Below are positions 29,880 to 43,181 of a DNA stretch of 64,000 nt, one piece after another. The DNA is taken from contig CANHQJ010000002.1 of the NCBI GenBank assembly GCA_947462875.1, positions 124,001 through 188,000 on the forward strand, in the 5' to 3' direction. Source of the DNA: Verrucomicrobiia bacterium. GTDB lineage: Bacteria > Verrucomicrobiota > Verrucomicrobiia > Verrucomicrobiales > Akkermansiaceae. Position 1 is the first letter of the stretch. Each line of letters begins with the position of its first letter. A model generated the notes under the pieces. It was not told the DNA's origin and ran no database searches. It saw nothing but the letters and a program-made list of their open reading frames with translations. The position numbers were made by a program, and so were the translations under genes.

Positions 29880-29902
29880 CTGAGTGCCAGAGCGGCACTC
29901 AG
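29880..29902. terminator. Hairpin between convergent genes
   Basis: A perfect 9-bp stem (CTGAGTGCC/GGCACTCAG) with a 5-nt loop overlaps the porin stop codon. It has no T-run on either side in the right position, so it may act as a bidirectional stop or as a 3'-end protector. Confidence 0.6.
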
Positions 29903-31218
29903 AAGCTCAGTTTGGCACCCGTTTGCCACATCAGGCTGGTGGTGTCCGTTTCGGAATCGAGGTCATCGCGGAACAGCGTGTACTCGAGGCCGTTGCTGAT
30001 GATCATGCGGTTCTCATAAAGATGGACATTGGCACCGAGGTAGAACGAGTGATACTCATCGCCGCTGACGATGGGACTATCGCCCTGATAGAACGGATCC
30101 GCGCCGGGACCGTAGCCACCGTAGATCGCATCCTGTTTGTCGGTATCGGCATAGTGATACCGGGCGACCAACTGGATGGTGCTGGGCATGATCCAGTAGG
30201 TGGGCATCAGCGTGAGGCCCCAGGCGTTGTTGTCACCGCGGGCGACGGTGAAGTCACCGATGAAACCGAAACGGTCCTGTTGCAGGCTGAAGCCGGTGGA
30301 GTAGAGATCACTGTAGCCGGTGGCACCGGCATAGCGGTGGCGCGGTAACACGTCGCTGCCGTCCTGATCGAGATTGTGGACATAGTTCAGATACCAGCGC
30401 GTGCGCAGCGGCGCGCCCGATTCCGCCTTGCCGACCTTTTCGTAGGAAACGCCGGCATTGATCAATCCATCGTTTTTGATGCCGGGGATGTTATCGCTGA
30501 AATCACCCGAGAACCAACCGAGTTGATAGGTCCAGCCTTTGTTGGTGGCATCGAACATCACGCCGAGGCTGTCGGCGGGGGCGATCATGTTCGAGAGCAG
30601 CGAGCGTTCGCTGATGAGCAGTTCCGCATCCGGCGTGTTGTTTTCGATCGTGCTGAGCGGGCGGAATTTGCCGAAAGTCACGCCGGTGTTTTCCGTCATT
30701 TCCGTGCGCGCCTTGAGCGTCTGGATCCCGTTCATGCGCGAGGGGCCGGCCATTTCGACCACGCCGGTGACTTCCGTGCGGTAAAAGGCCTTCATGCGGG
30801 CGCCGAGTTGGGCGCGGCGCATTTGCATGTCATTGACGTTTTGATTGAGGGGGGAGGTCTTGAGATCGTTATCGATCGAACCCCAGGCACCCGCGCCCTC
30901 GAACAATCCGGTGAGGGAAAATTCCTGCACGTAGGGATTTTTTTCATTTTGATAAAGCAAGGCGCGCGACCAGATCGGGTCGAACATTTCATGGGACTTG
31001 ACCGAGAATTCGGACGGCACCATGGCTTTGTAGGGCTTGGTGCTTTTGCCTTCGGCATCGGTGGCTCCGATGGCACCGCTCAGCACGGGGGCATCCTCGG
31101 GCTGCGGCGGCACCGTGACCGCGGCGGCGTCTTTTTTGCCCTCGAGGATATCGAGCGCTTCGTTGGCCAGCAGCGGGGCTGACAGCGAAAAGAGCATGAC
31201 AACAGAGTGAAGTTTCAT
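29899..31218 (-). CDS. Outer-membrane porin, PorinO/P-like
   Basis: The predicted protein is 439 residues. It has a signal peptide (cut after about residue 18, ending LLANE), a short Ala/Pro-rich periplasmic lead (about 20-60) and then a beta-barrel of about 16 strands, with alternating aromatic and polar residues and a C-terminal Phe (TGAKLSF). The barrel pattern, including GVTFGKFRPL and YQLGWFSGDFSDN, resembles phosphate-selective porins O and P. The ligand cannot be fixed from sequence. It is the last gene of the minus-strand TonB cluster, 23 bp after the TPR gene, and probably passes small solutes through the outer membrane beside the energised receptor. Confidence 0.85.
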   Translation of the reverse strand: MKLHSVVMLFSLSAPLLANEALDILEGKKDAAAVTVPPQPEDAPVLSGAIGATDAEGKSTKPYKAMVPSEFSVKSHEMFDPIWSRALLYQNEKNPYVQEFSLTGLFEGAGAWGSIDNDLKTSPLNQNVNDMQMRRAQLGARMKAFYRTEVTGVVEMAGPSRMNGIQTLKARTEMTENTGVTFGKFRPLSTIENNTPDAELLISERSLLSNMIAPADSLGVMFDATNKGWTYQLGWFSGDFSDNIPGIKNDGLINAGVSYEKVGKAESGAPLRTRWYLNYVHNLDQDGSDVLPRHRYAGATGYSDLYSTGFSLQQDRFGFIGDFTVARGDNNAWGLTLMPTYWIMPSTIQLVARYHYADTDKQDAIYGGYGPGADPFYQGDSPIVSGDEYHSFYLGANVHLYENRMIISNGLEYTLFRDDLDSETDTTSLMWQTGAKLSF

Positions 31219-31241
31219 AAGTGGGTGTGTTAGGGTAAAAG

Positions 31242-32726
31242 TTATTTCGGCGGTTGAGCGTTCGCGCGCTCGGCTTGTTCACGTTCCAGACGCGCTTTTT
31301 CGCGATCGGCAGCGCGGCGCACACGGCTGGCATACTGTTCGAGGGACTCCGTCTTCTTGAGTGAAAGCGCTTTTTCGATGAACGGAAGAGCCTCCAGTGC
31401 GCGGTTGTCGCGAATCAGCAACTGACCGTATCCGAGGTTGGCGGCATAGGCCGTGGCATCGTGCTGCATGGCCAGCATGTAATTGGTTTTCGCCTCGCCG
31501 ATGTGCTTGCGGATTTTATCCTCGTCCGTCTCAATCTTCGCGCATTGATCGTAGTGTCTGGCAGTCTCTAACAAAATATCGGGATTGGTTGGATTGTCTT
31601 GAAGCAACCGTGCGAGAATGCTGCCGACCACATCCGGTTGGTTGTTGTTACGGGCGATTTTCACTGCCGTGAGATCCAGAGCCAGTCGGTCGGCGGGAGT
31701 GATCTTGTCACCCGCCTTTGCGCGGATTTTTTGCAACATCTCGCCTGCTTCCTTGGGATTGCCGTTGTCGTTGAGGATTTTCGCCGACTTCAAGGCCTGT
31801 GCCACATCAAACTGCGTGGCACGGCTCATGGCATCCGCAAAGGCATCGAGCGCCAGCCGCGGTTGCGTTTGGTCAATGTAGATGTTTCCCAACAGAACGA
31901 GGCTCTTCTCATCGGCCAGGCCAAGCAGGCGCATCATTTCCAGATTGATGATCGCCTCGTCGAATTTTTCCATGGCGAGATACGCGCTGGTCTGACGCAT
32001 CCACAACTGGCGGTCCTGGGAATTTTCCTTGATCAGGATGCCGAACATGCTGGCCGCATCCTCATACTTGTCCTGCATGAGCAATGTCTGCGCCAGTCCC
32101 AGCTTCCAATCGCGCGAGTTGGGGTCGATCAAATACGCCTGTCGATAGGCGTTCTCGGCCGCCACGGCATTTTGTTTGAACATGTAGCAATAGCCCAACA
32201 TGCCCATCACACGCGCGGATTTTTCTCCCAGCTCGACCGATTTCTGGAAGGCGGCGAGGGCGTCATCCATTTTGTTTTGCGATGTGTAGAGAAACCCGAG
32301 GTTGGTGTAGGTGCGGCGGAACTTGGGAAAGCGGCGGATGGCCTCTTTGAACGAACGCTCGGCTTCATTGAGACGTTCCGATTGGAAATAGAGATTGCCC
32401 AACACGAAGACGAGCGCCGGACTGATTTCCCCCGGTTGCAAATTCGGATCGGTGGGTGCGGTGGTTTCCTTGATGTAGAGAACCAGTTGGTTTTCCGCAT
32501 CCTTGAATTTCGATTCCGCAAACAACGCTTGCAGGCGACCCAACAGCTTTTGTTCGGTATCGGTGACATCCGGCTCGACCTCGGAGAGAATGCCGTAACT
32601 GCCGACAAACTCTTTGGCAAAACCCGGTTGGCGGAACAAGGGCGCGGGAGCAATCAATGACTCCTCTGCCAGGGACGAATGAATCCCCCAGATGCCTAAC
32701 AAGGATAGAATGATGTGTTTTGTCAT
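31242..32726 (-). CDS. TPR-repeat protein of the TonB cluster
   Basis: The predicted protein is 494 residues with a signal peptide (ending HSSLAEES), then a long array of tetratricopeptide repeats (about residues 55-470), for example AERSFKEAIRRFPKFRRTYTNLGFLYTSQ and NAYRQAYLIDPNSRDWKLGLAQTLL. It ends in a charged, Lys/Arg/Glu-rich helix. It should be periplasmic and act as a docking scaffold. It begins 2 bp after the tonB stop. TPR proteins in this position are known from TonB3/TtpC-type clusters of Proteobacteria, where they support the TonB complex. Confidence 0.9.
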   Translation of the reverse strand: MTKHIILSLLGIWGIHSSLAEESLIAPAPLFRQPGFAKEFVGSYGILSEVEPDVTDTEQKLLGRLQALFAESKFKDAENQLVLYIKETTAPTDPNLQPGEISPALVFVLGNLYFQSERLNEAERSFKEAIRRFPKFRRTYTNLGFLYTSQNKMDDALAAFQKSVELGEKSARVMGMLGYCYMFKQNAVAAENAYRQAYLIDPNSRDWKLGLAQTLLMQDKYEDAASMFGILIKENSQDRQLWMRQTSAYLAMEKFDEAIINLEMMRLLGLADEKSLVLLGNIYIDQTQPRLALDAFADAMSRATQFDVAQALKSAKILNDNGNPKEAGEMLQKIRAKAGDKITPADRLALDLTAVKIARNNNQPDVVGSILARLLQDNPTNPDILLETARHYDQCAKIETDEDKIRKHIGEAKTNYMLAMQHDATAYAANLGYGQLLIRDNRALEALPFIEKALSLKKTESLEQYASRVRRAADREKARLEREQAERANAQPPK

Positions 32727-32728
32727 AA

Positions 32729-33436
32729 TCAGCTGTTTTTAACTTCGAATGTGTAAGGGATGAGACAGTTGCTCTGCACGGGTTTGCCGTCGCGCGAACC
32801 GGGTTTGAATTTCCATTTTTGCACGGCCGCGACCACCGCTTTGTCTAGCTCCGCCTGGCCCGAGCTTTGTTTGATGCTGACCTTGGTGACAGCGCCTGAG
32901 GAATCGACGGTGGCGGATACCACCACCTTGCCGCCTATTTTTTTGCGCAACAAGGCGCTGGGATACGTCGGCTGCACCTTGAGGGTAGGCACGGGGGGCT
33001 CGGTGTCGCCGCCATCGCCCATGAGATCGTCTTCCTCGGAATCACCGGCTCTGCCGCGTCTGCCGAATCGCGGAACATCCATCACAAAGCCGCCCGCTCC
33101 CTCGCCCATGGCCATTTCGCCGAGGTCAAGGCCCAGGTCGTTCACGGGCTCGTCGGGTGAAACATCCGCATCCTCGGGGATTTCCACGGGCTCCAGAGGT
33201 TCATCATATTCCTCGGGTTCGGGTTTCTGCTCTTCAGGCGCGGGTGGTGGCGGAGGTGGGGGTGGCGGAGGAGCGAACTCCACGAATTGGAATTCCTCCT
33301 CCTGGCCCTGCTCATCCACTGTCGAGCCATTGATGAAAAGTGACGTCACACCTCCCGCGATCACCAAACCAAGAAGAACAAGGATGGCCTTGACCTTTTT
33401 GGGCTTGTCATCGGATATGGTGGAAAATTGCCTCAT
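32729..33436 (-). CDS. tonB: TonB energy transducer
   Basis: The predicted protein is 235 residues. A short cytoplasmic start and one membrane anchor (about 16-34) lead to a periplasmic linker with ten consecutive prolines (about 55-65) and many Pro-Glu repeats. A Gly-rich stretch follows, and then the C-terminal TonB domain (about 150-233) with VQPTYPSALLRKKIGGKVVVSATVDSSG and the end QKWKFKPGSRDGKPV. It carries energy from ExbB/ExbD to outer-membrane receptors, here most likely the receptor encoded at 38429-41848. It is 9 bp downstream of exbD. Confidence 0.95.
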   Translation of the reverse strand: MRQFSTISDDKPKKVKAILVLLGLVIAGGVTSLFINGSTVDEQGQEEEFQFVEFAPPPPPPPPPPAPEEQKPEPEEYDEPLEPVEIPEDADVSPDEPVNDLGLDLGEMAMGEGAGGFVMDVPRFGRRGRAGDSEEDDLMGDGGDTEPPVPTLKVQPTYPSALLRKKIGGKVVVSATVDSSGAVTKVSIKQSSGQAELDKAVVAAVQKWKFKPGSRDGKPVQSNCLIPYTFEVKNS

Positions 33437-33445
33437 GAATCGTGA

Positions 33446-33850
33446 TTATTGGTTAGGCTGGGTTGCCAGACCGATTTTGGTGATCCCGTTTTTTCCCAGC
33501 ATCGTCACCACGGCCATGATTTTCTGATATTGCGTGGAGCTGTCCCCGCGCACCACTACGGGCAGGTCGGGTGTCACGGCCACCATGCCGGAAATCTTGC
33601 TTTCCAGTTCTTCCAGCGACATGGGCGTCAGGTTCAAGGTGATCTTGCCTTCCGAGTCGATGGTGATCGCCTGGATTTTCGGTGCGCTGATGTCTGCCGC
33701 CGCTTTGCTGCCCGCTTTGGGCAGATCGACTTTCACGCCCTTCACTCCCGCCGCGGTCATCACGATGAAAATGAGCAGCAACACCAGATACAGGTCCACC
33801 ATCGGTGTGACGTTGATATCATCAAAACTTTTATCGTCTCCAGAGGCCAT
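33446..33850 (-). CDS. exbD: ExbD/TolR-family proton channel subunit
   Basis: The predicted protein is 134 residues with one membrane helix near the N-terminus. The helix holds the proton-carrying Asp19 in VTPMVDLYLVLLLIFIV, the key residue of the family. The periplasmic domain ends with the usual VVVRGDSSTQYQKIMAVVTMLGKNGITKIGLAT pattern. It forms the ion-driven motor with the long ExbB encoded 21 bp upstream and energises TonB encoded just downstream. Confidence 0.96.
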   Translation of the reverse strand: MASGDDKSFDDINVTPMVDLYLVLLLIFIVMTAAGVKGVKVDLPKAGSKAAADISAPKIQAITIDSEGKITLNLTPMSLEELESKISGMVAVTPDLPVVVRGDSSTQYQKIMAVVTMLGKNGITKIGLATQPNQ

Positions 33851-33871
33851 GATAAGGATTGGTTGGAAATG

Positions 33872-35413
33872 TCAGATGTCCTCGCTATCGCTGAACTTCG
33901 GTGCGGTGGCTTCGTTGACTTGAGGATAAAACTCCGCCATTTTGGAAACAAACTCATCAATGAACACTTTCACTTCCGATGTGATGTTCTTGATGCGGTT
34001 GTTCAGGTAGGAGTAGGCGAAGAGTGCGGGGATCGCGACGATCAGGCCCGCCACGGTGGCAAGCAGAGCCGAGGCGATACCCGGCGCGATCGCGTTCACA
34101 TTGACCTCGCCCTCTTTGGAAATGATGGCGAAGGTGATCATCACGCCTACCACCGTGCCCAGCAGGCCGACATAGGGGCCACCGGCGATGCTGATGGTCA
34201 GATACACCAGACCGTTGGTGAGCTTGTGCTGGAGATTGACAAGACCGGCGTCCAGTGCGGCGCGAACGGCCTGGATCGAACGTCCGGAGAGTCCTTTGTG
34301 GCCGGACTTCACGGAACTCACCCGAGCGGTGATCTCTCCGGCACCGATGTGATAGATCTCATAAAAGGGCGAACGTTTCATCGCCGGCGTTTCGGTCAAG
34401 GTCTGCGCCTCGGCATTGCGCTCGAGAGTGGTGAGGTCGTTGGCCATTTTGCGCCACTCGCGCATGAAGTCGTGATTGCCTTTCTCGATCTTGTTCAGAT
34501 AGAGGATCTTGCGTGCGGCAACGGTCCATCCGACGCCGATCATGGCGACACAAATCGCGATCGCGATCCAGCCGTCGAACATCATGTTCTTGGCGATATC
34601 GCCGAAGAGCATCACGTGTTCGAGCGCTTTGTTTTGACCGCCCGGATGTTTCATCTCTGCCGTGATCGCTTTGCCCATGGTGCCATCGATCGGCAGCATG
34701 CCGGTGCCACTGGCGATCACCTGCGCGATCGCTCCGCCCGACTTGTTGATGGAAACGAAGGCCGGGTAGCCCGATCCGGTGTCGGACATGGGGCAGATGC
34801 CCTCCGAGATCTTGTCCTGGGCGGCGAAGAATACCGATGGCCCCATGATCAGAAAACTTCCTTCGATCGATCTTCCGGCGAATCCGAAAGCCTTGCCTGT
34901 GTAGGTGTGTCCGCCAGCGAGATCGGCGAGGCGTTTGATGCCAAGGGACAGCACTTTGACGCGCTCGTTGATTTCCTTCACCGGCTCGTTCACGGCGTTG
35001 AGCGCGCTTTGATCGATGTTGGCCACTTCCTCTTTGTATTGCTGATACTCCGCCGGATGGATGCGGGTCATGAAGGCCTTCGAATACTGATTGAGCAATC
35101 CCGATGCGTAGGTGAACTGTGCTTTGCGCTGATCCACTTCCTTTTCCAGCGTTTTCGTCTTGATGGTGCGCATCTCTTCGTCGCGCTCCAGAGCTCGCAA
35201 TTCCTTGGTCAGTGCGATGACCTCATCGTCGAGCTTGTTGATTTCATTGTAGGTGAAACGGCGCAGATCGCTGTTTTGCGCCACCGTTTTGTTCAGATCC
35301 TGGGCAGCTTGCTCGATACGGTTTTTGGATTCCGTCAGCGTGTCTGACTCCGCGGCGAATGCCAATGGCACCAGAACTGCGGAGAGAATCGTGTGAGTGA
35401 TCAAATGTTTCAT
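33872..35413 (-). CDS. Long ExbB/TolQ/MotA-family protein with periplasmic coiled coil (TtpC-like)
   Basis: The predicted protein is 513 residues, about twice the size of ordinary ExbB. A signal peptide (residues 1-20) and a long coiled coil (about 20-110) precede a periplasmic region (about 120-270). Three membrane helices (about 277-298, 400-430 and 448-468) then carry the MotA/TolQ/ExbB signature, including GPYVGLLGTVVGVMITF and IASALLATVAGLIVAIPALFAY. This layout matches the long ExbB (TtpC) of TonB3-type systems. Those clusters usually have a second, short ExbB as well; none is present here. ATG 35413 was chosen because it opens a good signal peptide. It lies between the DUF3450-like and exbD genes. 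Confidence 0.92.
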   Translation of the reverse strand: MKHLITHTILSAVLVPLAFAAESDTLTESKNRIEQAAQDLNKTVAQNSDLRRFTYNEINKLDDEVIALTKELRALERDEEMRTIKTKTLEKEVDQRKAQFTYASGLLNQYSKAFMTRIHPAEYQQYKEEVANIDQSALNAVNEPVKEINERVKVLSLGIKRLADLAGGHTYTGKAFGFAGRSIEGSFLIMGPSVFFAAQDKISEGICPMSDTGSGYPAFVSINKSGGAIAQVIASGTGMLPIDGTMGKAITAEMKHPGGQNKALEHVMLFGDIAKNMMFDGWIAIAICVAMIGVGWTVAARKILYLNKIEKGNHDFMREWRKMANDLTTLERNAEAQTLTETPAMKRSPFYEIYHIGAGEITARVSSVKSGHKGLSGRSIQAVRAALDAGLVNLQHKLTNGLVYLTISIAGGPYVGLLGTVVGVMITFAIISKEGEVNVNAIAPGIASALLATVAGLIVAIPALFAYSYLNNRIKNITSEVKVFIDEFVSKMAEFYPQVNEATAPKFSDSEDI

Positions 35414-35433
35414 GAATGATAAAAGTAAAGGTT

Positions 35434-36231
35434 TCAAGGGGTGGGAACAGGCAGGGTGGTGAATGATGTGTCTTTTTCCGTGGTGGCGGTGACGATCAGT
35501 TTTTTGACATCGGCGGCGATCTCATTGCGCTCGGTGAATTTCCAACCGCTTGCCTGGGGACTGCCGATCAGCGCGAAACTGGCATCTTCATTGACGGCAT
35601 ACGCGGCGGCCATTCCGATATAAACCACCTGCATGTTGAATTCCTGCCCGGCGGCATTCTTGTGAAGCTCGTTGCTAACCGTGACGTTCTGTTGGAATTT
35701 CTCCACTTCCGCGATCATTTCCGTGAGATTCGCCGAACGCTTGCCGACATCATCGGTCTGTTGGTCGGCGGGCAGCGATAGATTCTTTTTCAGCGTTTCC
35801 AGGCCTACGGCCATCTTGGACATTTTGATGAGAGGTGCGGGCAAAGAAGGGATCTGCTTGGCGAATTCCTCTTCCATGGTGCGCAAGTGCGCGGCCAATG
35901 CTTTTTCCGCCGCGATGAATTGATCGCGCTGGCTGATTTTGTCGGTCGATTGCTGGTCAGCCGCCTGAGCGCGCTGTTTCGCCTCTTCGATTTGCTTTTG
36001 GTAGGCAGCCTTTTCCGCGAGGAGACCTTCTTTGTAGTTGGTAAGAATCTCTTGATCGGTTTTCCAGGCATTTTCTTCCGCTTGACGTTTTTGCGCCGTC
36101 TCCAGCCACAGGCGCATGTTCTCTTTCGACTGGTCAAGGGGATGAGCGTTCTGAGCCTCACAGATCGTGGCGTTGGTGAAAAGCAACGATGTTGTCAGAG
36201 TTAGGAATTTGATGCGTGTCGTAACTGTCAT
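35434..36231 (-). CDS. DUF3450-like periplasmic coiled-coil protein
   Basis: The predicted protein is 265 residues. It has a signal peptide (to about residue 27), a long coiled coil (about 60-135) rich in Gln, Glu, Lys and Ala, and a C-terminal beta-rich part with NMQVVYIGMAAAYAVNEDASFALIG and SGWKFTERNEIAADVKKL. This is the pattern of DUF3450 proteins, which sit next to long ExbB genes in TonB3-type clusters. It is likely a periplasmic partner of that ExbB's coiled coil. The upstream hairpin at 36248-36277 is only 17 bp from the chosen ATG. Confidence 0.8.
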   Translation of the reverse strand: MTVTTRIKFLTLTTSLLFTNATICEAQNAHPLDQSKENMRLWLETAQKRQAEENAWKTDQEILTNYKEGLLAEKAAYQKQIEEAKQRAQAADQQSTDKISQRDQFIAAEKALAAHLRTMEEEFAKQIPSLPAPLIKMSKMAVGLETLKKNLSLPADQQTDDVGKRSANLTEMIAEVEKFQQNVTVSNELHKNAAGQEFNMQVVYIGMAAAYAVNEDASFALIGSPQASGWKFTERNEIAADVKKLIVTATTEKDTSFTTLPVPTP

Positions 36232-36247
36232 AGTGCGGAAAGTGTGG

Positions 36248-36277
36248 AAGGGCCGTCGGCGTGGGCCGACGACCCTT
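36248..36277. promoter_or_regulatory. Intercistronic hairpin in the TonB cluster
   Basis: A 13-position stem with 12 pairs and one C-A mismatch (arms 36248-36260 and 36265-36277) has a 4-nt GTGG loop. It lies between the beta-helix gene (ending 36308) and the DUF3450 gene (starting 36231). On the minus strand it has no following T-run, so it may be a partial stop or an mRNA-processing/stability element. Confidence 0.65.
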
Positions 36278-36307
36278 TGATTTGTTTTTGGTTTCTCTTG
36301 GGGGAAA

Positions 36308-38305
36308 TTAGGGATTCGGCGCGTTATTGCTGAGATCAACGCGGAAGAACTGCTTGCCCGGAGGTGTTGCGACAGTGGCTGTCGCATTGCCTGCTGGCGT
36401 CCAGTTCGTCAAATTGTCCGACTTGAACAGAGGCAATGTCAGCACCGCGTTGCCGCCCGGAGTCACAGGACCGATCATCATGCCGGTGCCGCGCAGGTTC
36501 TGGATGCTGGACTGCGTGTAAAGCGAGTCAAACAAGCTGGTGCCGGAAACACCGCCGTGGTTGGTGACGTTGTTCACTGTGGGGCTAAAGCCGAGTGCGA
36601 CGAGGTCGGATGTTGCTTCCAGAACGTCATCGATGCCGTCACCGTCCACGTCCACCACAGAGCTGGGTGCGGAACCCTGCAGCAAGCCAAGTTGGCTGAT
36701 CTTGGTCCAGCCTGCGGCCCAGTTCGAGGTGCCGAAGGCGCCACGATAAGGGGCATACACAGGAGCGCCACCCAATACGGTGCTGGTGAGCAACGGTGAC
36801 CCCGCGGCGGGCACGGGATTCAGTGCGGTTAGCACGTTGTTGGTGTTACGGGTGTAAGAGGTGAACATGGGACTCACACCGACGCTGCTGTTGTTATTCT
36901 GGGCAACGCCTGTCAGGGTGTAGGGGGCGAAGCCTTTGGTGCGGGCGTCACTCACTCCGCTTCCAACCAACACGGTGGTGTTCGTTCCGACAGTGGTGGT
37001 GGAGGCGTTGTTCACTCCGATCGAGCCGATGGTGTTGTGCGAGAATTTCGCCTCGGCGCCGATACTGTTCGTATCGATCAAACGCATCAGGCCATGGGAG
37101 AAATCGTGGAACACGGAGTTGTAGATCTCGCCGTTGAAGTAATCCTCGATGATCATCGCGTAGTTGCCCTTTTCCGTGTTGACGTTCTTGCCGCTGACGC
37201 GGGTCGGAATCGTGGTGACGGTGTTATCGGCACCGGCTCCGATGAAGGTCGCGTTGTGGATCACAGGACGGGCATGGTGTTCGTTGTTGAGGGTGCCAAT
37301 CGTGGGGTAGCCGGCGCTCGTTCCGCTCACGCCGTCCCACTCGCCACCGCCGTCGGTATCACCGGGATTCTGGAGGCAGAGCCAGAACTGGTTGATGCCG
37401 CGGTATCCTTCATCGATGTCGAACGAATCGTCCTGGTTGAACGCCATCACCATGTTTTTGGTATTCACGCGTCCGCCGAAAAATTCGATGCCATCGTCCT
37501 GGTTGGCGAAAACTTCGACATTTTCGATGACCGTGCCAGAACCCACCCCGCCGAGAGTCAGACCGTTGATCTCGCGGCCTGTTTCAAACTCGTAACCGCC
37601 GTGTCTGATCGAGACAAAACGAATTACTCCGCTGCTGTCGGTGTCATTGCGAGGAAAGTTGGTGCTGACACCGTATTGCGTGGCGTCTGGAATGGTATCG
37701 CCTTCGTAACTCGCCGTGCCGGCAGGAGCGAATCCCTCGATTTGGTTGGTGCCCGCATTGACGCCCGTGTTGTTGACGGTGGAGATAAACGCCTGACCGA
37801 GGAGCACGATGCCGCCCCACAGGCCGCCGTCCGCCGTCGTAGGTGCGGGTCCCACCGCGCTATCGGGGTCGAAAGCCGAATCGACGCTGTTCAAGGCCTC
37901 CCACTCCCGCACGCTGGTGAACACGATGGGTTCCGCCGCCGTGCCGTTGGCGATCAGTCTGCCGCCACGGCAGGCAACAATCGAGCCCACCTTGTCATCG
38001 GTGCGGACCGAGGGCGTGCCGTTGTCGTTGGTGGAGGAATAGATTACCGTTCCAGGCTCAATCGTGAGCGTGGCGCCACGGGGTATGAAAAGGCGGTCGG
38101 TGAGAAAGTAGGCATTGTTTTTGGTCCAGGTCACGTTGGTGCCTTTCAGCACGCGGACGTTGGTGCCGAGTCCGCCATCCACTCCTCCGTTGAGAGAGGC
38201 GAAGCTGTTCTCGCTGTAGTTGCTGTCGCCGATCACATCGATGTTCGCGGCGTAGAGGGCCGGGGTCATGAGTGCTGCGATGAGTAAGTTGTTTCTTGCT
38301 TTCAT
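36308..38305 (-). CDS. Secreted parallel beta-helix protein with C-terminal module
   Basis: The predicted protein is 665 residues. A signal peptide (to about residue 19, ALYAANIDV) leads to a long Asn/Gly/Thr-rich region that looks like a right-handed parallel beta-helix, with repeated turns such as GATLTIEPGTVIYS, GGRLIANGTAAEPIVFTS and FGGRVNTKNMVMAFNQDDSFDIDEGY. Near residues 548-560 is a calcium-type DVDGDGIDD loop, then a C-terminal module with SDNLTNWTP and QFFRVDLSNN. I found no obvious enzyme signature. Sitting directly after the TonB receptor gene, it may be a surface ligand-binding partner or exported cargo. The function is inference. Confidence 0.8.
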   Translation of the reverse strand: MKARNNLLIAALMTPALYAANIDVIGDSNYSENSFASLNGGVDGGLGTNVRVLKGTNVTWTKNNAYFLTDRLFIPRGATLTIEPGTVIYSSTNDNGTPSVRTDDKVGSIVACRGGRLIANGTAAEPIVFTSVREWEALNSVDSAFDPDSAVGPAPTTADGGLWGGIVLLGQAFISTVNNTGVNAGTNQIEGFAPAGTASYEGDTIPDATQYGVSTNFPRNDTDSSGVIRFVSIRHGGYEFETGREINGLTLGGVGSGTVIENVEVFANQDDGIEFFGGRVNTKNMVMAFNQDDSFDIDEGYRGINQFWLCLQNPGDTDGGGEWDGVSGTSAGYPTIGTLNNEHHARPVIHNATFIGAGADNTVTTIPTRVSGKNVNTEKGNYAMIIEDYFNGEIYNSVFHDFSHGLMRLIDTNSIGAEAKFSHNTIGSIGVNNASTTTVGTNTTVLVGSGVSDARTKGFAPYTLTGVAQNNNSSVGVSPMFTSYTRNTNNVLTALNPVPAAGSPLLTSTVLGGAPVYAPYRGAFGTSNWAAGWTKISQLGLLQGSAPSSVVDVDGDGIDDVLEATSDLVALGFSPTVNNVTNHGGVSGTSLFDSLYTQSSIQNLRGTGMMIGPVTPGGNAVLTLPLFKSDNLTNWTPAGNATATVATPPGKQFFRVDLSNNAPNP

Positions 38306-38428
38306 GTTTTTCGTTAGTTTTTGTGGGCCATGTGTTGCTTGAACTGGTGGCAACGGCGGGAATCTGAATCAGTGGAAGGCAAATGTCGTGGATTGCTGTG
38401 AAACAGAATTGTCACTTGGTGGAATATG

Positions 38429-41400
38429 TTAGAAGTTGAGCTGGATCTCGCACCAGTAGTTCCGCCCCAGATTGGTGCTGTCGAAAACCTTGTCGTTGAG
38501 CGTGTAGGTGTCCACCGCGTTGAAAAGATTGCGCACGCCGCCGCGCAGGGTGTATTGCACGTATTCGGTATCGATCACCTTGGCGAGGATCAGGTCGAAG
38601 GTGTGGATGGCATTGCGCGTGACCTCGAAGTCTTCGGGCGTGAGCTTGAGAACAGTGGGATATTCGCCGTTGTAATTGTAAACCAGGTTGGCGTTGAGTT
38701 TCCACGGTTCGTATTCGTAGCCGAGATTGATGTTGGCGATATGCGATGGCTGGAACGGCAGCTGGCTGGTGACGGCGGTGGTCTGGCCGTTTTGCACGTA
38801 GAAGTAATTCAACTGGGCGTCGATGTAGGTGAAGTTGCTGCGGATGCTGAAAGGACCGAGGTCGGTGATGCTGTATTCCAGTTCGATGCCGTTGAGATTG
38901 GCGGTGAAGTCCTCCTGGGTGTTGGCGAGATTGTCCCGATAGGAATCCGCATACAGCAAGGTGCCGTTTTCGACGAAGGTGACGAGCGGACGCACCAGGT
39001 TTTTATGAAAGAAGCTGGCGCGCAGGCTGGTGTTTTCCGAGGGATTGTAGGTGATGGCGAGATCGAAGTTATCGATGTCCGTTTGGCCCAGGATGTTGTT
39101 GCCCCGGCGTTGCAGTCCGGTGGTCTGATCCAGCGAGATCGAAGGAATGAATTCCCAGAACGTGGGGCGTGCGACGGTTTGCGACCACGCCACCTGGAAG
39201 TTGAGCAGTTTGTCAAAAATGGACGTGCCGGCGCTGATGGCGGGGAGAATGGCCTCCTGAGGTTCGCGGTTTTCCCATCCGTTGCCGATGATCTGTTCTT
39301 CGGTGAACGCGGAGAGCGGATTGGGAGCGATGTCAATGTCGTACGTTTCCTTCTCCATTCTCACACCCGCGTTGAAAAACGTCTCATGATGGCGGAAGAG
39401 GAAATTGGCGAAGTAGGCGGTTTGGTCGAGCCGGGTGGAAATGTTTTCCAATCCGTTTTGTTGCAGGAAATTCAGATAGTAAGGACTGCCTGAAACATTG
39501 CCATTGAGATAGTCACGGATGAGATTCGGATTGTTGGCGATGGCTTCTCCCAAGCCACCGGGGCCTGAGAGGGCTCCATTGTTGAAACCGGGTTCCGTGG
39601 GTGAGGAACTGCTGAGCACCAGATCATAGGCGCGGGCGCGGGCCACGCGGTCTTTTGTTAGGGAAGAGGCGCCCAAGCCGAATTCGATGAAGCGCTCGTC
39701 GTCATCGTCGAAATAAAAGGGCACCCCCATGCTCATCTGGCGATGGCTGCTATCTTCGGTGGTGCGGTCCAGGCGGCGAGAGATCCGCTGCTTGCCGGGA
39801 ATGGAACCGGAGGCGGTGTGGTCCGAGGTGTTGACGGGAGGACGGTTGTCATCGGGGATCACGGCAATGCCGCGCTCGATGTCCTCATACAGGCTGCCCA
39901 GACCGAGATCGACGAGAGGCTGTTCAATGGTCTCCCATGTATAGCTTTGCGGATTGGCCAGACCCAGTTCGCCGGCGAGAATGACGGCATTCTCATTGAG
40001 GATTTTGTTTGCCGCCGCAATCTGAGTGGCGAGCGCGGCGGAGGAGAAATCGAGAACGCCGTACTCGAAGTGCGTGCTGTGAGGTCGTGACTCCACCGCA
40101 CTGCTGCGCGTGATGGCCCAATCAAGACGGGGCCCGCGCTCATCCATGCGGTGGCTGCCCTTGAACTGATAGATTTGCAGATCGCGTTCCAGTGGCGAGA
40201 TGTCCCATGCGGCGCCGTAGTAGATGTAGTCCGGTCCATAGACATTCTGCGGATTCGCGTTCGAGTTCTGGACATGGACCCCGTAGTTCAGGTTCTCCTC
40301 ATCATCGAAAATCTGGGTGGTGTGGAAAATGTCATCCTGGGCGATGTGCTTGTTGAAGTAAGTGGCCTGGAGGGTGTGGTTTTCGTTGATTTGAAGGGCT
40401 GCGGAAAGATAGGCCGTCCACTCGGCGCTGCGGCTGTATTCATCGCGAAGGAAGCTGCGAACCTGGTTGTTGACCGGAGTGGTGTTGAAGGTGTCGAGAG
40501 TGCCTCTGCTGAAGGCGGTCATGACGCCCAATTTCATTTGATGCGGCAATTCAAAGACATCACCGTAGGCAAACGATTGGGAATAGTTCAGCTGGCTATC
40601 ACTTTCTTTTGGCAGGAAATTCTGAGATTCATCCAATTTGCGCCAGCGTTCGCCCAACTCGGGGGCGGGGGTGTTTCCGCTGTCCAGAAACTTGACGCTG
40701 CCATCGGGGTTGCTCTCTTCCAGCACGTCGGGCATGTCATCGCCGATGTCACCCCACATGCCCAGATCGCGATTCGGATGCACAAGGGTTTTGCTCTGCA
40801 AGGCATCATTGTAACTCAGGCGGCTGTTGAACTGAATCAGGCGTTCCTGTGGCATGGATCGTGAAATGATATCGATCGCGCCACCGCCGAAGTCTCCCGG
40901 AAGATTCGGGGAATAGGTCTTGTCGACCTTGATTTGTTCGATGGCCGTGGTGGGGAAAAGGTCGAGCTGCACCGCCTTGCGCGAGGGATCGGAGGAGGCG
41001 ATTTGAGCACCGTTGAAGGTGGTGGTGACATAGCGATCGGCGAGTCCGCGCACGACGGCATACTTGCCATCCACAATATTGGCACCGGATACCTTGGCTA
41101 CGGCTTCGCCCGCATCCGATACGGCGTTTTTGGTAAATTCTTCACGACCCATGACGGCGGTCAATTTGGGCGCATCCATGTTGATGTTCAGATTGAAGTC
41201 GCCCTGATTGTTTTCCTGGTATTCACCGACCACCGTTTCCTCATCCAGCATGGTTTCTTCCGCGGCGGCATCGGCGGCCTTGACCTTGAGCACCAGGCGG
41301 ATGGTCAGTTTTTGGCCGGGCATGGCGGTGGCGGATTGGGTGCCGCTGGAGTAGCCGAGTTTGGATGCTTCCAGGGTGAGATTTCCCGAGGCTACGGCGG

Positions 41401-41848
41401 AAAAGGAAAAGGAACCATCGGCATTGGTGGTGGCGGTTTTTCCCGTGCCGAGAATCTCGACTGCCGCACCGCGAACGGGCTCCAGTTTGTCATCGGACAC
41501 CTCGCCGATGATTTCGCAAAATCCCGCAGGCACGACTGGCACTTGCACGGGGGGCGGCAGATTGGGCGGCGGCTCGGCGGCCACCATGCGGGTGCGCACG
41601 AGCAGTGGCTGGCGGGCAATGGTGCGCTGTACCTGATAGGATTCCACGAGGGTCTTGCCCTGCCATTGCGGCTTGATGCCCCATGACTCCGCGGCGATGA
41701 TGCCCGCGCGCTCGGGAAACCAACCCCAGTCTTCCACGAGGCTGCCGGTGAATGCCTGTGCGTTTGCCGCAAGGGCAAGCACCATGCCCGTGAACCACAA
41801 GGCGAGTCGTGGCAAAATCAGCAGCAGGGGCGAGAAAATCTTCTTCAT
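38429..41848 (-). CDS. TonB-dependent outer-membrane receptor (1139 aa)
   Basis: A signal peptide (to about residue 32) is followed by an unusual lead domain with WGIKPQWQGKTLVESYQ, a Pro-rich link, and a carboxypeptidase regulatory-like beta domain (about 108-190, with AAVEILGTGKTATTNADGSFSF). Next is DEETVVGEY, a possible TonB box, and the plug (about 225-330) with KYAVVRGLADRYVTTTFNGAQIASSDP and GDFGGGAIDIISR. The rest is a 22-strand barrel ending in Phe (EIQLNF). Ligand type cannot be read. It is the first gene of the minus-strand cluster with its own DUF3450-like protein, long ExbB, ExbD and TonB downstream, so a dedicated pairing is likely. Confidence 0.95.
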   Translation of the reverse strand: MKKIFSPLLLILPRLALWFTGMVLALAANAQAFTGSLVEDWGWFPERAGIIAAESWGIKPQWQGKTLVESYQVQRTIARQPLLVRTRMVAAEPPPNLPPPVQVPVVPAGFCEIIGEVSDDKLEPVRGAAVEILGTGKTATTNADGSFSFSAVASGNLTLEASKLGYSSGTQSATAMPGQKLTIRLVLKVKAADAAAEETMLDEETVVGEYQENNQGDFNLNINMDAPKLTAVMGREEFTKNAVSDAGEAVAKVSGANIVDGKYAVVRGLADRYVTTTFNGAQIASSDPSRKAVQLDLFPTTAIEQIKVDKTYSPNLPGDFGGGAIDIISRSMPQERLIQFNSRLSYNDALQSKTLVHPNRDLGMWGDIGDDMPDVLEESNPDGSVKFLDSGNTPAPELGERWRKLDESQNFLPKESDSQLNYSQSFAYGDVFELPHQMKLGVMTAFSRGTLDTFNTTPVNNQVRSFLRDEYSRSAEWTAYLSAALQINENHTLQATYFNKHIAQDDIFHTTQIFDDEENLNYGVHVQNSNANPQNVYGPDYIYYGAAWDISPLERDLQIYQFKGSHRMDERGPRLDWAITRSSAVESRPHSTHFEYGVLDFSSAALATQIAAANKILNENAVILAGELGLANPQSYTWETIEQPLVDLGLGSLYEDIERGIAVIPDDNRPPVNTSDHTASGSIPGKQRISRRLDRTTEDSSHRQMSMGVPFYFDDDDERFIEFGLGASSLTKDRVARARAYDLVLSSSSPTEPGFNNGALSGPGGLGEAIANNPNLIRDYLNGNVSGSPYYLNFLQQNGLENISTRLDQTAYFANFLFRHHETFFNAGVRMEKETYDIDIAPNPLSAFTEEQIIGNGWENREPQEAILPAISAGTSIFDKLLNFQVAWSQTVARPTFWEFIPSISLDQTTGLQRRGNNILGQTDIDNFDLAITYNPSENTSLRASFFHKNLVRPLVTFVENGTLLYADSYRDNLANTQEDFTANLNGIELEYSITDLGPFSIRSNFTYIDAQLNYFYVQNGQTTAVTSQLPFQPSHIANINLGYEYEPWKLNANLVYNYNGEYPTVLKLTPEDFEVTRNAIHTFDLILAKVIDTEYVQYTLRGGVRNLFNAVDTYTLNDKVFDSTNLGRNYWCEIQLNF

Positions 41849-41937: not shown

Positions 41938-41953
41938 GTGACACATTCGTCAC
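41938..41953. promoter_or_regulatory. Palindrome GTGAC-N6-GTCAC, copy 1
   Basis: The spacer is ACATTC and both 5-bp arms are perfect. It lies in the 202-bp region between the divergent receptor and ketosynthase genes, 90 bp from the receptor start. It is probably an operator for a dimeric regulator; the regulator is unknown. Confidence 0.6.
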
Positions 41954-42015: not shown

Positions 42016-42031
42016 GTGACGGGGATGTCAC
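42016..42031. promoter_or_regulatory. Palindrome GTGAC-N6-GTCAC, copy 2
   Basis: It has the same arms and spacer length as copy 1 (spacer GGGGAT), 78 bp away. It ends 19 bp before the ketosynthase ATG, where a bound protein would block transcription or lie over the promoter. Confidence 0.6.
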
Positions 42032-42050: not shown

Positions 42051-43181
42051 ATGTCTTATTTGATTCGCGGTCTTGGCGCTCTATCCGCTCTCGGGGAAAC
42101 AGTCTCCGGGCATCGCGAGGCGTTGCGGGAAGGACGTGATTCATTTCGGGAATTGGGCACCTTGCTGGAGTGCTCGATCCCCACACTGCCTGCGTCATGG
42201 ATTCAAAATCGTGCGCTGCTCACGCATCGCAAGTGGTCGCCGGCGGCGATGGCGGCACTGCATGTAGCGCGCGAGGCGGTGGCGGCCGCGGGGTGGACGG
42301 ACGAGGAAACGCGCGATGCGGTGATTCTGCTAGGCACCTCGCGCGGGGGAGCCGCCGGCTGGCTGGAGCCGTGGCCGAAGCGTCGGGGATTCCCCCTCAT
42401 GCAGGCCAGCAACTCGATGCATGGCGAGGCGGCGGCGGCCGTCAGCATAGCGCTGGGCATACGCGGTGCCTATCAGGTCATTTCCACCGGATGCTCGGCT
42501 GGCCTCGATGCGCTGGGTATGGCGGCGATGCACCTGCAATGCGGCATGGCCGAGCGGGCCCTGGTCGTGGCGGTGGATCTGCCTCTGGTGAAGGTCATCC
42601 TCGATGGCTACCAATCCGCCGGGATTCTCTCGAAAAACGGTATGAATGATCCGTATCATCCCGATACCGGAGGCATTTTTCCCGCCGAAGCCGCCGCTGC
42701 TCTGACCTTGGAAAAAAACGATGCATCGCCGGGCGTGAGGCTGCTTGGTTATTTGGCGAATTCCGATGCGATGGATCCCTTGTCGCTCTCGCCCGCCAGC
42801 GGGCAATTGGTCGCCTTGCTGGAAAAAGCCCGTGCGATGTTCGGCGAACCGGCGGCGCTTTGTCCGCATGCCACAGGCACGGCATCGCATGCGGTGGCGG
42901 AACCGCAGTGCCTCGCGCAGGCATTTCCCGCCGCCACTCCCAGCCTGCATTTGCTCAAGCCCTATCTCGGCCACGGCATCGGCGCCGGTTCTTTGCTGGA
43001 AACGGTGATCCTCTGCGATAGCCTCGAACGCGGTCTGTTGCCGCCGAATCGCCCCGGTCTTCATGCGCCGCCACGGTTTTCCCTGCCGGATCAGGAAACG
43101 GCCTGTGACGGTGCGGTGTGGAAAATCGCCGCGTCACTCGGCGGACACAATGCGATGGTAGCCTTGCAGCGTCGGCCCTGA
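42051..43181 (+). CDS. Beta-ketoacyl-ACP synthase-like ketosynthase (orphan)
   Basis: The predicted protein is 376 residues with the thiolase fold of FabF-like condensing enzymes. The catalytic set is complete: Cys148 in STGCSAGLDALG, His273 in CPHATGTASHAV (the THGTGT position) and His308 in LKPYLGHGIGAG. It is somewhat shorter than FabF (about 410), and the first His motif is atypical. No acyl carrier protein, ketoreductase or dehydratase gene is nearby, so the pathway is unknown. It is divergent from the TonB receptor gene with two identical palindromes between. The following DUF6797 gene starts 62 bp downstream. Confidence 0.9.
   Translation: MSYLIRGLGALSALGETVSGHREALREGRDSFRELGTLLECSIPTLPASWIQNRALLTHRKWSPAAMAALHVAREAVAAAGWTDEETRDAVILLGTSRGGAAGWLEPWPKRRGFPLMQASNSMHGEAAAAVSIALGIRGAYQVISTGCSAGLDALGMAAMHLQCGMAERALVVAVDLPLVKVILDGYQSAGILSKNGMNDPYHPDTGGIFPAEAAAALTLEKNDASPGVRLLGYLANSDAMDPLSLSPASGQLVALLEKARAMFGEPAALCPHATGTASHAVAEPQCLAQAFPAATPSLHLLKPYLGHGIGAGSLLETVILCDSLERGLLPPNRPGLHAPPRFSLPDQETACDGAVWKIAASLGGHNAMVALQRRP

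Follow-up and report, generated by a model that had tools for sequence, protein, structure and literature searches.

To our knowledge, little beyond the classical porins is understood of how phosphorus passes the outer membrane of starved cells. We describe here a cluster of eight genes in a 64,000-nucleotide stretch of DNA (the window; GenBank assembly GCA_947462875.1, contig CANHQJ010000002.1, positions 124,001 to 188,000) from a bacterium of the family Akkermansiaceae, in which a TonB-dependent receptor and a secreted beta-helix protein are encoded together with a TonB motor and a porin-like barrel. On the basis of sequence comparisons and structure models, the cluster is probably an operon for phosphate starvation whose products together form an entire outer-membrane line for the capture and import of phosphorus. 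The closest described systems come from Caulobacter, Flavobacterium and Vibrio.

In Caulobacter crescentus, elpS (cc0170) is followed by the receptor gene cc0171 and the gsp genes, and ElpS is described as a lipoprotein of the cell surface that is produced under phosphate starvation (PMC2996285). The same account ties ElpS to alkaline phosphatase, which it is apparently not itself, the refolded protein having no such activity; ElpS is also shed from the cell surface, and cells that overproduce it show more extracellular phosphatase activity. Release needs type II secretion and apparently a protease, deletion of the receptor leaves ElpS production in place, and the authors read the co-occurrence of the elpS and receptor genes as a sign of interaction. 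In Flavobacterium johnsoniae, the lipoproteins FI and FII are encoded in clusters with low-phosphate receptors, FII together with phoBR, and are reported to be strongly induced by phosphate depletion, under which FI is the most abundant exoprotein of this species; both are given as 31-36% identical to the Caulobacter protein over half their length (PMC8115612). The Vibrio motor block, as published, consists of the six genes ttpB-ttpC-exbB-exbD-tonB-ttpD; the TonB2 system, which serves siderophore uptake, cannot transport iron without TtpB2 and TtpD2, and the TonB3 cluster of Vibrio vulnificus starts with an outer-membrane receptor gene (PMC6957404).

The window locus resembles the Caulobacter pair in what is apparently the same protein family, an adjoining TonB-dependent receptor and a probable link to phosphate starvation, and alphaproteobacterial relatives of the window protein retain the Caulobacter order of elpS, receptor and type II secretion genes. 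ElpS, however, is a lipoprotein encoded beside type II secretion, whereas the window has a TonB motor, a tetratricopeptide repeat (TPR) protein and a porin-like gene instead. With the F. johnsoniae PUSIII and PUSIV clusters the locus shares a pectin-lyase/polygalacturonase-like exoprotein and a CarboxypepD_reg receptor, FI and FII being compared by description, but the passages of PMC8115612 covered here name no motor for these clusters. DUF3450, long ExbB, ExbD, TonB and TPR genes follow one another as in V. vulnificus TonB2/TonB3, although the window lacks the second, short ExbB, adds the beta-helix protein and the porin-like gene, and carries a PHO-box-like site where a putative Fur box is described for Vibrio TonB2 (PMC6957404). 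The SusCD/PusCD systems of Bacteroidota would work alike, an extracellular capture protein being combined with a TonB-dependent receptor, but their capture partner is a SusD-family lipoprotein rather than a beta-helix protein without a Pfam match. Finally, a plasmid of Pseudoalteromonas donghaensis (NZ_CP032091.1) has a single run of genes for DUF3450, two ExbBs, ExbD, TonB, TPR, an ElpS-like protein with three domains and a receptor, the DUF3450 call being that of the record annotation, since our own profile missed it. This run joins pair and motor, so their coupling occurs in a second phylum, although here the pair lies downstream of the motor and no porin-like gene is present in the run. 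In a literature search that covered few subscription papers, nothing turned up that connects ElpS-like pairs, or phosphate, with a Ttp motor.

Gene order and component proteins

A check of the open reading frames in the window confirmed the eight minus-strand genes in the order given by a preliminary description of this DNA, running from 41848 down to 29899. These genes and two upstream sites are as follows.

38429..41848, minus strand: TonB-dependent receptor, 1139 aa, with a CarboxypepD_reg-like domain (residues 113-187) and a Plug domain (residues 224-321), both by Pfam
36308..38305, minus strand: secreted parallel beta-helix protein, 665 aa, ElpS-like, with one beta-helix domain (profile searches and structure model)
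35434..36231, minus strand: DUF3450 protein in the TtpB position (Pfam DUF3450, 2.1e-17)
33872..35413, minus strand: long, TtpC-like ExbB with a signal-like N-terminus and a long N-terminal extension (Pfam MotA_ExbB)
33446..33850, minus strand: ExbD/TolR family protein (Pfam ExbD)
32729..33436, minus strand: TonB with a proline stretch (Pfam TonB_C)
31242..32726, minus strand: TPR protein in the TtpD position (Pfam TPRs)
29899..31218, minus strand: outer-membrane barrel with a distant resemblance to porin O/P and some 16 strands in a weak model (model and profile comparison)
41938..41953, minus strand: PHO-box-like site GTGACGAATGTGTCAC, about 90 bases 5' of the receptor start (pattern match)
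42016..42031, plus strand: second PHO-box-like site, beside the start of a divergent ketoacyl-synthase-like gene (pattern match)

The starts given by the ORF caller were overlong for three genes, for which plausible ATG starts were chosen (beta-helix, 38305; DUF3450, 36231; ExbB, 35413); with these, the intergenic gaps from receptor to barrel are 123, ~76, ~20, 21, 9, 2 and 23 bases. The eight genes are likely to form one transcript because no gap exceeds 123 bases and exact PHO-box-like sites occur in this region only before the receptor gene. In our scan, promoter-like sites were at chance level, and 21 terminator-like sites were found against 16.2 expected (standard deviation 3.9). The ketoacyl-synthase-like gene (42051-43181, plus strand), divergent from the receptor gene, has its own PHO-box-like site at 42016-42031.

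Searches of Pfam, NCBIfam and PDB sequences gave no credible match for the beta-helix protein; for its family, the PDB sequence search returned a single weak match (0.65), and a Pfam scan of 23 members a single match (0.096) in one of them. VIA-align of an AlphaFold2 model (mean pLDDT 72; 240 of 665 residues at 90 or above) gave Z 21.1 to alginate epimerase/lyase (rmsd 3.7, 276 aligned) and Z 19.2 to Pel9A (rmsd 4.5, 310 aligned), bearing out the parallel beta-helix fold that had been proposed; Foldseek alone gave nothing under 0.001 with this model, so that the fold assignment comes from VIA-align. The N-terminus, read by eye, is signal-like and has no lipobox cysteine, and acidic residues are strongly conserved in the family as the Asp/Glu of the motifs DDG-E-F-GG, DD-FD-D and E-DGG. 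The barrel of the receptor resembles TIGR01782, with a score under the cut-off of that model. As a separate observation, the C-terminal ~110 residues of the beta-helix protein (window 36308-36670) also match further reading frames in the genus (755, 1306 and 1391 aa as open frames), and this shared stretch is possibly an export or anchoring domain.

A profile made from relatives of the window protein matches a Sphingomonas protein (1.1e-57) and an Indioceanicola protein (3.1e-121) on plasmid records, and at both loci the beta-helix gene is followed by a receptor gene and then by type II secretion (gsp) genes. A Marinobacter record holds a beta-helix protein (1.5e-65) with no annotated receptor adjoining. 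By way of these relatives in elpS gene context, profile comparison assigns the window protein to an ElpS-like beta-helix family, ElpS itself being known by description; we write ElpS-like, not ElpS, because the window protein has no lipobox.

On Pfam matches and the published Vibrio order, the sequence of DUF3450, long ExbB, ExbD, TonB and TPR genes is that of a Ttp-type TonB2/TonB3 motor. The order thus agrees with the earlier match of these five genes to the TonB3/TtpC-type cluster, but the Vibrio block has six genes, and the window cluster, with its single ExbB, has no separate short ExbB after the TtpC-like gene. Because that gene is missing, the window motor is classed here as a single-ExbB variant, predicted to work like TonB2/TonB3, and not as TonB3 proper. 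The preliminary description had taken the single ExbB and the linkage of receptor to motor as setting the cluster apart. The former holds in the window, but as a hallmark of the system it was rejected, as many relatives' clusters have two ExbBs, in the family and in the same genus (G006); the latter was rejected as unique because Vibrio TonB3 and the Pseudoalteromonas cluster also link the two. The channel part of the window ExbB shares 42-50% identity with matches in 6 of the 25 plasmid records retrieved, two of these matches lying within proteins annotated as DUF2341. The genome itself encodes eight receptors with Plug domains against two TonB_C genes, one being the TonB of the cluster; the remaining seven receptors are shorter, with open frames of 655-753 aa.

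The last gene (29899..31218) gave no match in Pfam (threshold 0.01), NCBIfam or PDB sequence searches. Comparison of its profile with four PF07396 proteins encoded near the same pair in other bacteria gave a probability of 81.8 (E 1.1e-5). In the structure model, which is weak (pLDDT 57, ~16 strands), the top three PDB matches by Foldseek are OprP and OprO (TM 0.3), and VIA-align ties OprB (13.4), OprP (13.0) and OprO (12.8). The profile and the model give indirect support to the PorinO/P-like barrel assigned earlier, and we class the protein as porin-like, not as a member of PF07396.

Probable phosphate control of the cluster

The first scan, with the Pho-box spacing, covered 121 upstream regions and found it at up to one mismatch in 15 of them, against 1.6 in shuffles; a derived pattern was then counted at up to two mismatches. 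Of 26 regions filed under the family, 23 carry this pattern (1.1 in mononucleotide shuffles), as do 3 of 16 from two related families (0.4 in shuffles) and 20 of 79 from elsewhere (3.5 in shuffles). The count is partly circular, because the regions that supplied the pattern are those in which it was then counted. Among the 26 are a genome present twice (L080, the same as L075) and a locus, L041, that belongs to another family; 21 of 24 carry the pattern when both are left out.

In the genome of the window the exact pattern gives 15 strand matches at 11 places, and the reversed pattern gives 4 strand matches. Two of the 11 places lie in the receptor promoter region, five lie one each at other genes, making seven, and the remaining four lie elsewhere. 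One place is before pstS, another between pstS and pstC, and a further one where a second pstB begins; this pstB is 58% identical to the first and has phoU, phoB-like and phoR-like genes behind it. PstS, PstC, PstA, PstB and PhoU of this genome pass curated cut-offs. In five other genomes the reversed pattern gives 17 strand matches and the pattern itself 60. The latter fall at 45 places, 8 of them at the cluster, and among 20 regions that account for 23 of the 37 non-cluster places, 5 hold pst or pho homologues and 2 more hold one of the two further genes described at the end of this section. Same-genus G006 repeats the pattern at pstS, at pstB-phoU-phoB-phoR and at both of these further genes. 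The best reading is that the cluster probably belongs to the PHO regulon, its predicted PhoB site sharing a motif with the promoters of pst and pho genes in this genome.

Neighboring genes of the pair in other bacteria point in the same direction. We compared 116 immediate neighbors (120-1200 aa, loci L082-L158, three motor-bearing loci excluded) with 110 of 165 genes at positions 4 and 5. Among the matches listed, DNA-binding response regulators make up 11 of the 116 and 2 of the 110 (Fisher p 0.019), and the immediate neighbors include polyphosphate kinase three times, porin O/P three times, and Na/Pi cotransporter and PHO4 twice each; among the matches listed for the controls, PPK2 and PhoD each appear once. 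The motif common to pst and pho genes, the phosphate-type neighbors and the literature on ElpS and FI/FII give substance to the hint at phosphorus in the preliminary description.

Two further genes carry the pattern in the genome of the window. One encodes a 643-aa protein in which a GT4-type glycosyltransferase is fused to a metallophosphoesterase (L170:1769-3697, G000:C2); it could serve phospholipid-to-glycolipid replacement in one polypeptide. The other encodes a 583-aa protein (L173:4173-5921, G000:C13; L218 in G006) that lies directly behind a PHO-box-like site in two species, with 87% identity; it has no Pfam or NCBIfam match and is, from its position, a candidate new member of the phosphate regulon.

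Conservation and exchange of the receptor/beta-helix pair

Beta-helix matches occur in 41 of 116 related genomes, in one of these (G064) by the C-terminal domain only. A hand count over the 29 same-family genomes with the beta-helix domain shows DUF3450 adjoining the beta-helix gene on the same contig in 22 and not adjoining in 3 (G040, G050, G057), the contig being broken there in 4 (G009, G028, G036, G060); the breaks in G009 and G028 were checked individually. The whole order through the porin gene recurs within this family, which includes Luteolibacter pohnpeiensis (L080; the upstream DNA of G033 is identical to it). In other families of the order, DUF3450 lies within ~6 kb of the beta-helix gene in 3 of 11 genomes (G090, G096, G110), and the genes between beta-helix and receptor in these families (428, 431 and 372 aa) have no Pfam match. 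DUF3450 is also found in genomes of the order that have no beta-helix gene.

A named collection contains at least 585 stretches that encode beta-helix relatives, of which the best 80, with limited flanks, were analyzed; they span Verrucomicrobiota, Bacteroidota, Latescibacterota, Ignavibacteria, Chlorobiota, Gemmatimonadales, Zixibacteria, Acanthopleuribacter and others. A receptor gene lies on the same strand at most two genes away in 61 of the 80 (31 upstream, 30 downstream), and in 13 of the 19 loci without a nearby receptor the contig stops at the beta-helix gene. A motor stands beside the pair in five loci (L079, L080 and L140 of the same family, L107 and L108). The receptor and beta-helix unit with its TonB motor in one likely operon stands as described earlier. 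The co-occurrence check proposed in that description gives a split answer: the pair stays with the motor within the family (22 of 25 judgeable genomes), but outside it the pair is mostly motor-free (the motor is near it in 3 of 11 genomes of other families of the order and in 5 of the 80 named loci, 3 of these 5 belonging to the same family). Receptor and beta-helix protein therefore look like a conserved unit to which the motor was added.

Within the genus (8 genomes, 28 pairs; G007 has no usable fragment), identities of receptor and beta-helix protein correlate at 0.93 (Mantel p 0.004) and those of DUF3450 and ExbB at 0.95. Across the whole family (190 pairs) the receptor correlates at 0.88 with the beta-helix protein and at 0.62-0.72 with the other genes. 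G001 and G004 carry a second type of receptor and beta-helix protein, 81 and 89% identical to each other and 42-45% to the window, with a motor that is 85-99% identical to that of the window. In G006 the receptor, the start of the beta-helix protein and the porin are 64-82% identical to the window and the TPR protein 60%, and the motor differs (DUF3450 36, ExbB 31, ExbD 25% identical). These comparisons support the view that the receptor and beta-helix genes swap together and independently of the motor.

The beta-helix domain itself is repeated in some relatives. Among 19 complete genes from the family and one near relative, nine have one domain (three with a partial second), six have two, three have three and one has five; eight further complete genes in two other families have one domain each, and 88 reading frames of the named loci, some of them cut, have one full domain in 64 cases, two in 10, three in 6 and none in 8. 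Domain copies within a gene are 65-100% identical in DNA. In L111 and L136, the two domains of one gene are 100 and 99.8% identical, which may reflect either very recent duplication or an assembly artifact. A contig end breaks the beta-helix gene in 11 of 29 genomes on a hand-made list of which two entries were checked, against 3.3 expected for a 3-kb gene and random breaks, and chance was rejected as the cause. Contig ends also fall in the receptor gene (G002, G048) and in tonB (G010). Three of five tested pairs of contig ends share 31-mers; because the other two share none, near-identical repeats explain the breaks only partly.

Proposed function and alternatives

We propose that PhoB, acting at the box predicted upstream of the receptor gene, would switch on all eight genes together. 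The ElpS-like protein, to judge from its signal-like N-terminus, would be exported and, by analogy with ElpS and flavobacterial FI/FII, would reside at or near the cell surface, where it may be the first component to bind the substrate, capturing a phosphorus-bearing ligand such as an organophosphate polymer, a nucleic acid or a phosphorylated glycan. It would then pass the ligand to its cognate TonB-dependent receptor, which the Ttp-type motor of the operon may open with proton-motive force, and the porin O/P-like barrel might admit, by diffusion, phosphate released outside. The comparisons above support phosphate regulation of the operon and the pairing of receptor with beta-helix protein; the ligand, the direction of import, the surface location and the exclusivity of the motor are inferred. 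The overall interpretation in the preliminary description is partly supported.

What appears to be new is the full coupling of pair, motor and porin in one PHO-type operon, the swapping of the pair, and the multiplication of capture domains in tandem. We also suggest, tentatively and with less conviction than for the operon itself, that cognate receptor/beta-helix cassettes, passed as one piece among related species, make up a widespread, unnamed kind of phosphorus importer beside SusCD and stand-alone receptors, in which tandem capture domains would form a surface array and, in the family of Luteolibacter, the motor would be exchangeable. Fucoidan breakdown by a verrucomicrobial isolate is reported to be limited by phosphate, and 211 of 246 Akkermansiaceae genomes to encode PstSABC (PMC12872454); the passages of that paper covered here name no phosphate-specific outer-membrane partner, for which the operon described here is a candidate. 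The operon may also point to a function for a beta-helix family of many phyla that has no credible Pfam model (23 members scanned). The capture-importer pair is widespread and little studied, and the window version suggests that it can have its own motor and reshuffle as modules; module swapping among close relatives would offer a natural experiment on receptor-partner and receptor-motor specificity.

Several observations weigh against a phosphate-regulated import line. Given the circularity noted above, only the pst and pho matches count as independent motif support. The PhoB and PhoR models score below curated cut-offs in the genome of the window, 13 of the 20 regions in the five other genomes lack pst, pho, fusion and 583-aa genes, and of ten pair neighbors chosen by length, 7 score best with PhoB models, under curated cut-offs, and 3 do not. 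The link of the porin to a phosphorus system is weak, and the sole gene of the genome that passes the Porin_O_P model sits elsewhere, not in the cluster. Caulobacter ElpS has been linked to phosphatase activity and not to import, with a partner receptor reported as constitutive (PMC2996285), and the window protein lacks the lipobox of the lipoproteins ElpS and FI/FII. In addition, the correlation of receptor with ExbB identities in the genus is -0.05, which counts against tight receptor-motor specificity.

One alternative is that the motor is a general one, present in a PHO-type operon by descent and energizing several receptors, and that the pair would work with any TonB. The scarcity of motors beside the pair (5 of 80 named loci), the exchange of the motor in G006 without change of the pair and of the pair in G001 and G004 without change of the motor, and DUF3450 in genomes of the order without a beta-helix gene are all as this would predict; yet the pair keeps its motor in 22 of 25 judgeable family genomes, a second TonB gene is present in the genome, and co-regulation of a general motor with the phosphate regulon would be odd. 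We regard this explanation as somewhat unlikely. That the beta-helix protein is instead a lyase or hydrolase of a phosphorylated glycan, whose products the receptor takes up much as in a polysaccharide utilization locus without SusD, we consider unlikely: the modeled fold is nearest to alginate epimerases and lyases, tailspikes and Pel9A, and the conserved Asp/Glu of the three motifs would suit an enzyme, but no Pfam match names an enzyme family, refolded ElpS lacks alkaline phosphatase activity (PMC2996285), and a common fold proves no function.

Still less probable is a display or release system in which motor and receptor put the beta-helix protein on the surface or shed it; the protein would then act outside as an activator of phosphatase, with no import of ligand. 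TonB-dependent receptors are importers as a class, and although the family includes some large beta-helix proteins with several domains, and the shedding of Caulobacter ElpS and the effect of its overproduction would fit such a role, the same account has ElpS released by type II secretion and an apparent protease, and still produced when the receptor is deleted (PMC2996285). We think it very improbable that the operon imports iron or another nutrient with no link to phosphorus; such an assignment would follow the same-type Vibrio TonB2 motor, which serves siderophore uptake (PMC6957404), but it leaves the PHO-box-like sites and the phosphate-gene neighbors aside, and any iron receptors of this genome could be among its seven other, shorter receptors.

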